Assembly (NCBI GenBank): GCA_027315365.1
Contig: DAHUYF010000121.1
Coordinates: 1 to 34,386, forward strand
DNA: 34,386 bases
From: Rhodospirillales bacterium
Lineage (GTDB): Bacteria; Pseudomonadota; Alphaproteobacteria; ATCC43930; CGMCC-115725
Direction of reading: 5' to 3'
Below the pieces are notes generated by a model. That model had not been told where the DNA came from. It did no database searches and saw only the letters and a program-made list of their open reading frames with translations. This document shows positions 27,348 through 29,603 of this stretch, in pieces. The position numbers and the translations under genes are program-made. How positions within the stretch are numbered: position 1 is the stretch's first letter; each line of letters begins with the position of its first letter.

Positions 27348-28343
27348 ATGGCTGCGCGGCGGCGCCGGCGCTGGCTTGGCGCGGCGCTGCTCGCCGCTCT
27401 GGCGCTGGCCGGCGCGACGTACTGGGCGTGGCGCGACTATACCGCGCCGGGACCGTTGTCCACCGGCAGGATCGTCGTCATCCCGCGCGGCGCCGGGGTG
27501 AGCGCGGTGGCCGATCTGCTGGCCGAGCAGGGCATTGTCGCCCATCCCTGGTCCTTTGTCTTCGGTACCTTCCTAGACGGCAAGCTTGGCGCGCTCAAGG
27601 CCGGCGAGTACGAATTTGCCGCCGCCATCAGCCCGCGCTCGGCCGCGGCGCTCATCGTCAGCGGCCATGTCGTGCAGCACCGCGTCACCGTGCCCGAAGG
27701 TCTCACCAGCCTCGAGGTTGTCGCTTTGCTGCGCCAGCAGGAAGCGCTCGAGGGCAGCGTCGATGATACGCCGCCCGAGGGCAGCCTGTTTCCCGATACC
27801 TACTTCTATGTGCTGGGCGAGCGTCGCCAGGATCTCCTGGCGCGGATGCGCCGCGCCAGAGACCGTGAGCTGGCAAGCGCCTGGGCCGAGCGCAGCCCGG
27901 AGCTTTCGCTGACCAGCCCGGCGGAGGCGCTGACCCTGGCCTCGATCGTCGAGAAGGAGACGGCGCGCGAAGATGAGCGGCCCCATGTCGCCGCCGTTTT
28001 CCTGAACCGGCTGCGGCTCGGCATGAAGCTGCAGGCCGATCCCACGGTCGCCTATGCGCTGACCCGGGGCGGCGCCGGGGCGCTCGACCATCCGCTGGAC
28101 CATGAGGATCTGGCGGTGGATTCACCCTACAACACCTATCTCCATGCCGGCCTGCCGCCGACGCCGATCGACAATCCCGGGCTGGCCGCGCTGCGTGCCG
28201 TGCTGCACCCCGATGCCAGCGACGACCTCTACTTCGTGGCTGACGGCAGCGGCGGCCATGCCTTCGCGCATAGCTTGGCCGAGCATAATCGCAATGTCGC
28301 GCAGCTCCGCCGCCAGCATGCCGAGAGCGGTGGCACGCCGTGA
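27348..28343 (+). CDS. mltG: Endolytic transglycosylase MltG
   Basis: MltG cuts growing peptidoglycan strands and so sets glycan length. The 331-residue protein has an N-terminal membrane anchor (about 8-27), a LysM-like/periplasmic region and the YceG catalytic core with ASIVEKETA (Glu202/Glu204) and [41 protein letters not shown]. The ATG directly follows the fabF stop. This fabF-mltG order is typical of alphaproteobacteria. Confidence 0.95.
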
Positions 28344-28359
28344 ACCGGAGGAGAGCGGA

Positions 28360-28647
28360 ATGACCCGCGCCGAAAGCATCCGCCACGAGGACAACGACGC
28401 GGTCCGCGTGACCGAGTGGCGCTTCGCGCCCGGCGCGGCGACGGGGCATCATCACCACGAATTCGATTACGTCGTCGTCTACGTCACCCCGGCGAAGATT
28501 CGCGCCGTCGGCCCCGGCGGCGAGACGAGCTTCGAGATGGGCGCCGGCCAGTCCTATTTCCGTCGGGCCGGCGTCGAGCACGACGTCATCAATGTCGGCG
28601 ACGCGCCCGTCACCTTCGTCGAGATCGAGCTGAAGCGGCCGCGCTAG
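28360..28647 (+). CDS. Small cupin-domain protein
   Basis: This is a 95-residue single-domain cupin. GHHHHEFDYVVVYVTPAKIRAVGPGG and, later, GQSYFRRAGVEHDVINVG give the two cupin motifs with a histidine-rich metal site. A strong GGAGGAG (28346-28352) precedes its ATG, so I reject the longer upstream frame inside mltG. It may be co-transcribed with mltG 16 bp upstream. Its TAG stop forms part of the border of the tandem-hairpin element. No specific function is assigned. Confidence 0.85.
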   Translation: MTRAESIRHEDNDAVRVTEWRFAPGAATGHHHHEFDYVVVYVTPAKIRAVGPGGETSFEMGAGQSYFRRAGVEHDVINVGDAPVTFVEIELKRPR

Positions 28648-28765
28648 TGTTGCGGTTTCGACACTTGATCCCCGATCAGGTGTTGAAACCGCAACGCAAC
28701 CCTTTGAGTTTGCCAGTGTTCCGACACCGACGCTTGAGAGACAGGCGTCAGTGTCGGAACACTAG
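28644..28765. repeat. Tandem-hairpin palindromic element with CTAG ends
   Basis: This is 122 bp holding two long imperfect hairpins in a row. Hairpin 1 pairs 28649-28670 with 28674-28695 (22-bp arms, two G-T pairs, CCC loop). Hairpin 2 pairs 28715-28736 with 28742-28763 (22-bp arms, one mismatch and one G-T pair, AGAGA loop). The whole is bounded by inverted CTAGTGTT (28644-28651) and AACACTAG (28758-28765). Both flanking convergent genes use a TAG that lies in these ends. It resembles a REP/BIME or MITE-type element and may also terminate transcription in both directions. Confidence 0.8.
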
Positions 28766-29523
28766 CCGCGCGCCACCCGCCGCGTGAGGGCGTCGCTGAG
28801 CCGCCAGCGCAAGCAGCCGGCGAGCCAGGTCAACGCCGCGGTGGGCCAGGGGAAGGCGATGCGGCCGTCATCTCGCGCGAGGCCCCGGGCGATGATCTCC
28901 GCTGCCCGCTTCGCCGAGATGAGGAACGGCATCGGGAATTTGTTGGCCGCGGTCATGCGCGTGGTGACGAAGCCGGGGCAGATGACGCAGACGCGGATCC
29001 CGTCGCGGGCGAGCATCAGGCGCCAGGCGTCGCCGAGCGCCTTCACCGCGGCCTTCGACGCGGAATAGGCGGGCGCGGTCGGCAGCCCGCGATAGGCGGC
29101 GAGCAAGCTGAGCAGCGCGATCTGGCCGCCTCGCCTCGCCGTCATGCGCGGCAGCACGGGAAAGACGGTGTTGAGCACGCTCTCGATATTGGTCGTCAGC
29201 ACGCGTCGCGCGGTCGCCTCGTCCTGGCGTCGGGCCCCCATCCCGGCGGCGATGCCGGCATTGGCGATCACCAGATCGAGCGGCGTGCGGTCGTCAACCC
29301 GCTCTATCCAGCGGCGCAGCCCGTCGCGGTCGGTGACGTCGATCGCGGCGGCATCGACTGCGGCGCCGGCGGCGCTACAGGCGGCGGCGACCGCTGCCAG
29401 CCGTGAACCGTCTCACCCGGTAAGCGCCAGCGCACGCCCCGGCGCGGCATAGTGCCGGGCGAGCGCCTCGCCGATGCCGCTCGACGCGCCGGTGATGAGC
29501 AGGCTCTGTGGAATCCGGGCCAT
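28762..29523 (-). pseudogene. Short-chain dehydrogenase gene with premature stop
   Basis: Read from the ATG at 29523 this is a normal 253-residue SDR: MARIPQSLLITGASSGIGEALARHYAAPGRALALTG, then a TGA at codon 37 (29415-29413), then DGSRLAAVAAACSAAGAA. The remainder is intact, with NAG near residue 91, a catalytic YSASK and CPGFVTTRMT. A CGA (Arg) to TGA change would explain it, as relatives have GRD at this spot. Without read-through or restart the product would lose its cofactor-binding fold. The TAG stop lies in the hairpin element. A sequencing error is possible but the rest of the frame shows no decay, so the stop is recent or an error. Confidence 0.8.
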
Positions 29524-29603
29524 GGGTTTCCACGTGCTTTGTTGTTGCGCGGTGCCGCCAAGGCTATAAACGCCCGGGCTGCTCGTCGAGGGGATATGAG
29601 CGC

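Follow-up and report, generated by a model that had tools for sequence, protein, structure and literature searches.

A 122-bp element made of two back-to-back hairpins, lying between two convergent genes in the 34,386-nucleotide stretch of Rhodospirillales bacterium DNA analyzed here (the window; contig DAHUYF010000121.1), is most probably (about 0.87) a non-autonomous MITE that belongs to the IS630/Tc1-mariner type, relies on an ISAr1-like transposase acting in trans to enter the TA of CTAG, and has each of its ends doubled into a hairpin. This reading is based on the many copies, on empty sites, on the CTAG at the element ends and the similarity of these ends to those of ISAr1-type ISs, on compensatory change in the stems and on an enrichment at stop codons.

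Two hairpins between two stop codons

The two hairpins, both strong, fill the span of the element (Table 1). Its outer ends are inverted (CTAGTGTT/AACACTAG) and form a 12-nt inverted repeat (28643-28654 and 28755-28766, 92%), in agreement with the initial annotation of the locus. That annotation also assigned 22-bp arms to both hairpins, which holds for hairpin 1 (28649-28670 and 28674-28695; 22 nt, 91% complementary, or 24 bp across the whole hairpin when G-U pairs are counted); the arms of hairpin 2 are 25 nt long (28712-28736 and 28742-28766; 88% complementary), extend one base past the element end and have a tip of the CGCTTG/CAAGCG type. Aligned in direct register over 26 nt, the 5' arms of the two hairpins share 73% identity, and the hairpins are thus related to each other, as had been supposed. 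Folding of positions 28634-28775 as RNA gave −91 kcal/mol on the forward strand (z = −11.85) and −87.7 kcal/mol on the reverse strand (z = −11.78), with none of 200 shuffles as good.

Table 1 Features of the element and its flanks, in window coordinates
Feature	Position	Strand	Basis
Whole element, including both CTAG ends	28644-28765	+	Sequence, aligned with other copies
Inserted part, if TA is duplicated	28647-28762	+	Sequence
Left TA, presumed target duplication in CTAG	28645-28646	.	Sequence and the IS630 TA rule as described in PMC2170065
Right TA, presumed target duplication in CTAG	28763-28764	.	Sequence
Hairpin 1: left terminal sequence and its own inverted copy	28647-28697	+	Fold, arm search, end comparison
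Linker AACCCTTTGAGTTT, 14 nt, alike among own-genome copies	28698-28711	+	Alignment
Hairpin 2: right terminal sequence and its own inverted copy	28712-28766	+	Fold, arm search, alignment
Cupin-domain gene (PF07883), part tested	28366-28647	+	Domain match; TAG stop 28645-28647 in left end of element
Short-chain dehydrogenase (PF00106), C-terminal open part	28762-29271	-	Domain match; TAG stop 28764-28762 in right end of element

A cupin gene on the forward strand and a short-chain dehydrogenase gene on the reverse strand converge on the element, and the placement of both TAG stops within the element ends was confirmed. The short-chain dehydrogenase frame (28765-29541, reverse strand) also contains a TAG in frame at about codon 43; the gene seems interrupted, or there is an assembly error.

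Highly stable hairpins between convergent genes would also suit an ordinary bidirectional terminator serving both genes, or a host RNA element under selection at this position. A scan of positions 28300-29100 for terminators detected no GC-rich stem with a T-run after it, which argues against this origin, and a comparison of positions 28500-28900 with Rfam gave three sub-threshold matches and nothing above threshold.

Dispersed copies, stem change and insertion sites

When the element was compared with its own genome using BLAST, 36 matches were obtained, many of which were the two arms of a single palindrome. With a covariance model built from 11 own-genome copies, we located at least 24 separate places with E ≤ 1, of which 12 were near full length (≥99 bits) and the other 12 weaker or partial; the count may be a lower bound, since 150 of 2849 candidates were scored. 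The multiple copies predicted for a mobile repeat were therefore present, and at 122 bp, with no transposase gene and in 24 places, the element has the dispersal of an IS630-family MITE. The window copy had no match among plasmids and phages, and neither did three further family members (L117, L124, L131) among plasmids. Two loci (L028, C6:50904-50955, and L030) each hold one hybrid hairpin of ~52 bp, in which the left end of hairpin 1 is joined to the right end of hairpin 2; these may be a minimal form or have arisen by deletion.

Gene context was inspected for 22 of the 24 places, using gene predictions based on codon usage rather than annotation. Flanking genes were unidirectional at 14, convergent at 7 and divergent at 1, and no inspected copy lay inside a predicted gene. 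The TAG stop of a predicted gene fell in an element end for 12 of 21 copies, compared to 6 of 26 CTAGs outside elements, such that stops were enriched at element ends (one-sided Fisher p = 0.018). CTAG was ~seven-fold rarer than base composition predicts, with 48 occurrences in 115,904 b (22 within elements) against 331 expected.

We also assessed the distribution of the family across Alphaproteobacteria. An exact pattern scan of genome contigs recovered at least 115 stretches and, among the 80 listed, most were in Rhodospirillales and Acetobacteraceae assemblies, while a few look like chance. Of 385 genomes sampled from the class, with the own genome among them, 19 matched a wider covariance model of 22 diverse members (threshold E ≤ 1e-4) and 6 matched a stricter pattern. 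The plan of CTAG, hairpin, linker, hairpin and CTAG was constant, while stem sequences varied. Right ends (n = 98) had T in 78, A in 88 and G in 86, with little preference further on. One Acetobacteraceae assembly holds members with hairpin 2 copies in tandem (L111, L133), suggesting expansion of a hairpin module, and two ~170-bp variants (L371 in G354 and L372 in G058) follow the same two-hairpin plan with long loops.

Among the 22 members of the wider set, hairpin 1 arms paired at −31.2 kcal/mol with their own partners and at −13.9 kcal/mol with partners taken from other members, 11 of 462 such swaps being as good, and the corresponding values for hairpin 2 were −37.1 and −30.5 kcal/mol (34 of 462). 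Own arms paired better than swapped arms, and the stems have therefore undergone compensatory change, through selection or correction between arms. Excess stability of one strand was mild (17 of 22 members, sign test p = 0.017), and we treat it as a lead only.

Among 41 genomes searched with the covariance model (the own genome and 40 relatives), matches occurred in the own genome, in a genome of another genus of the same family (G004, 21 matches) and in one of another family (G039, one match); the three other genomes of the same genus, which are 78–82% complete, gave no match. With the flanks of seven sites, and a single flank of one more, as queries, we obtained 18 orthologous or probable orthologous stretches from relatives for these 8 sites, which were then aligned. 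All 18 were free of the element by either covariance model, and the positive control, the window copy (L001), was detected. A single CTAG stood at the junction, as the sole CTAG of the stretch, in 4 of the 18 site-by-genome comparisons (L023 in G001 and G002, L022 in G003, and L014 in G001; stretches L314, L321, L319 and L316); another stretch, L329, has CTAG a few codons off the junction and was left out of this count. Other readable junctions had TTAG or GTAG (two) or CTAA (one). The empty-site case is carried by a minority of the stretches, since in the remainder the motif was absent or divergence was too great to read. In these four comparisons the TAG therefore predates the insertion and, together with the CTAG at the element ends, they bear out the proposal of CTAG as the motif targeted.

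At the window locus, the element is absent from the same-genus genome G001, where the two genes end TGA CCGG TCA, four bases apart; in a second relative (L327, from G003) divergence was too great to read. The predicted empty CTAG, found in the four comparisons above, was thus not seen at the window locus in the one readable relative, which has no CTAG there. Because the cupin gene of G001 ends in TGA, the TAG borne by the element may be a new stop at this locus. The claim that the element supplied stop codons may accordingly hold here but is only partly right, as CTAG or another xTAG was mostly pre-existing in the readable empty sites elsewhere.

The maintenance of stem complementarity across lineages and the mild strand bias are also what a terminator or a host RNA element might display, yet the dispersed copies in the own genome and the absence of the element at this locus in G001 contradict the case of a single copy with hairpins conserved in place in all relatives, and instead match the mobile MITE proposed initially. 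A terminator as the origin of the element is already contradicted, and we regard a host origin of either kind as very improbable. The hairpins may affect transcripts, and the element may secondarily, as one possible effect, terminate them.

A probable ISAr1-type partner and a model of insertion

Of 14 other carrier genomes, 11 contain transposases of the IS630 type (DDE_3), and the own genome has them at four places; three carriers of the repeat (G043, G050, G051) had no DDE_3 match. The assembly DX1.bin89 carries both the repeat and a 1156-bp IS630 (L230), whose transposase has DDE_3 and HTH domains and whose ends, CTAGTGGTAAAAATCTAACGGATG and, inward from the other side, CTAGTGGTCCGAGTCTAATGCTTGG, are of the same two types as the repeat ends in that assembly. 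Relatives of the L230 transposase in plasmid records are annotated IS630, at least two of them being listed as 'IS630-like element ISAr1 family'. A script located IS ends in 9 of 34 loci, and CTAG stood on both sides of these ISAr1-type ISs in 9 of 9 (L278, L279, L281, L252, L263, L270, L273, L276, L253), five of the nine being copies in one genome; the end pairs of L254 and L255 were chosen by eye.

The right end of the window copy was identical to the left end of L254 at 19 of 26 positions after CTAG, the best of 20 IS ends (0 of 20,000 shuffles), and its left end was identical to its best IS end at 16 of 26 positions (p = 0.00025–0.00055; 20 IS ends tried). The poorest three matches (4–9 of 26) were those to ends from other IS630 groups (L226, L077, L076), and a fourth such end, L258, was not among the listed ranks of this comparison. 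Shared terminal sequences thus have a same-assembly partner in DX1.bin89 and none in the own genome, where no IS with matching ends was found (of the four DDE_3 places, two have other ends and two lack convincing terminal repeats) and where the L230 transposase had no match at 1e-60. We rejected as partners the own-genome IS630s L076 and L077, which sit in CTAG but have ends unrelated to the element, and, for the repeats of G109, the IS630 of that genome (L258), whose end differs from the repeat ends.

A preference for TA in CTAG was reportedly described by Tenzen and Ohtsubo in 1991, to judge from the title of their article. IS630-family elements, as described in PMC2170065, target TA and duplicate it on insertion. 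With ends like those of ISAr1-type IS630s, the expected duplication is therefore TA within CTAG, and we infer that TA rather than CTAG was duplicated; the single CTAG at empty sites is compatible with either, and the ends do not discriminate between them. The alternative suggested initially, an IS5-group MITE that duplicates CTAG as a palindromic 4-bp target, would likewise produce CTAG at both element ends and single CTAGs at empty sites, but IS630 fits better, given ends like those of ISAr1-type elements, which are themselves bordered by CTAG, and an IS5-group origin appears quite unlikely.

The initial annotation had also named a REP/BIME origin. Under such a reading a RAYT (Y1 HUH transposase) would mobilize the hairpin pair, and CTAG would be the foot tetranucleotide of each hairpin. 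Such a pair would have its hairpins head-to-head on a tetranucleotide foot, as here, and in some members a three-base stem bulge can be seen by eye at the same place in both hairpins; GTAG-REPs, as described in PMC3733652, also give flanking ORFs TAG stops. This origin was nevertheless not upheld and is very unlikely indeed, as a Y1 transposase was present in 4 of 16 carrier genomes and not found in the other 12, own genome included, the stems are ~22–25 bp compared to the 8–9 bp given for CGTC REPs in PMC3733652, and the element ends resemble IS630 ends.

On the preferred IS630 reading, an ISAr1-like transposase would mobilize the element in trans, as we infer from sequence comparison. Each element end would be the ~30-bp terminal sequence of ISAr1-type ISs duplicated in inverted orientation, and the resulting order of end, inverted end, linker, inverted end and end would form two back-to-back hairpins. 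Cut-and-paste insertion into the TA within CTAG (C^TA^G) would duplicate the TA; since either strand of CTAG contains TAG, this would regenerate a TAG at each border. Insertion at a stop, or between convergent genes, would spare proteins, so that such copies would survive and the stop bias would arise simply via loss of harmful insertions. Survival is probably the reason for this bias, while a genuine target preference for stop codons is conceivable.

Relation to known repeats

Judged by analogy, RUP (repeat unit of pneumococcus) appears to be the nearest known system by mechanism, and CIR (Caulobacter CcrM-associated intergenic repeats; Caulobacter/Brucella) the closest in shape and host group. 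The RUP host belongs to another bacterial phylum, and the presence of many copies on stop codons is a feature of the element, unlike RUP. As described in PMC2229807, RUP resembles the element in being ~107 bp long and intergenic, with IS630-family-like ends and a TA target, and its mobilization in trans by IS630-Spn1 was proposed from end similarity. The two are likened by description, RUP having a 9-bp TIR (PMC2229807, Table 1), whereas each end of the element is a 22–25-bp hairpin of its own. Pneumococcal repeats including RUP are, according to PMC3049150, overrepresented between convergent genes.

CIRs, which we likewise compare by their description in PMC2229807, are ~110 bp, alphaproteobacterial and intergenic, with two long inverted repeats, a linker and 5'-TA-3' termini, all of which the element resembles. 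They are listed there without a TIR and with mobility unknown, and have GANTC at or partly in the terminal loop, whereas the window copy has no GANTC; counted at any position in the fold, the motif occurs in 6 of 11 own copies and 18 of 22 wider-set members. ISAr1-type IS630 ISs resemble the element in their terminal ~30 bp and, like it, are bordered by CTAG, but encode a transposase of ~360–380 aa, and the L230 ends, by eye, are without the long hairpins of the element. The GTAG/CGTC REPs described by Di Nocera et al. 2013 (PMC3733652) are also paired palindromes downstream of genes, with GTAG termini that are often TAG stops, but have short stems and other tags, and the GTAG REPs are linked there to RAYTs.

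At the level of titles and abstract openings, with most subscription journals outside the search, we found no ISAr1-derived two-hairpin repeat in the literature. As a tentative generalization, which we hold with some doubt, alphaproteobacterial two-armed intergenic repeats, possibly including CIRs, might form one ISAr1/IS630 MITE superfamily, in which hairpins arose from inverted end doubling and were kept by selection or arm-to-arm correction, and in which the C^TA^G target would make TAG stops, especially overlapping convergent ones, self-repairing safe landing sites. The hairpins kept at the 3' ends of genes could influence mRNA ends. On the IS630 reading, a dispersed alphaproteobacterial repeat gains a likely mover, a rule for its target and a simple account of its position at stop codons; the reading also predicts empty sites, and other two-armed repeats such as CIR might be explained along similar lines.
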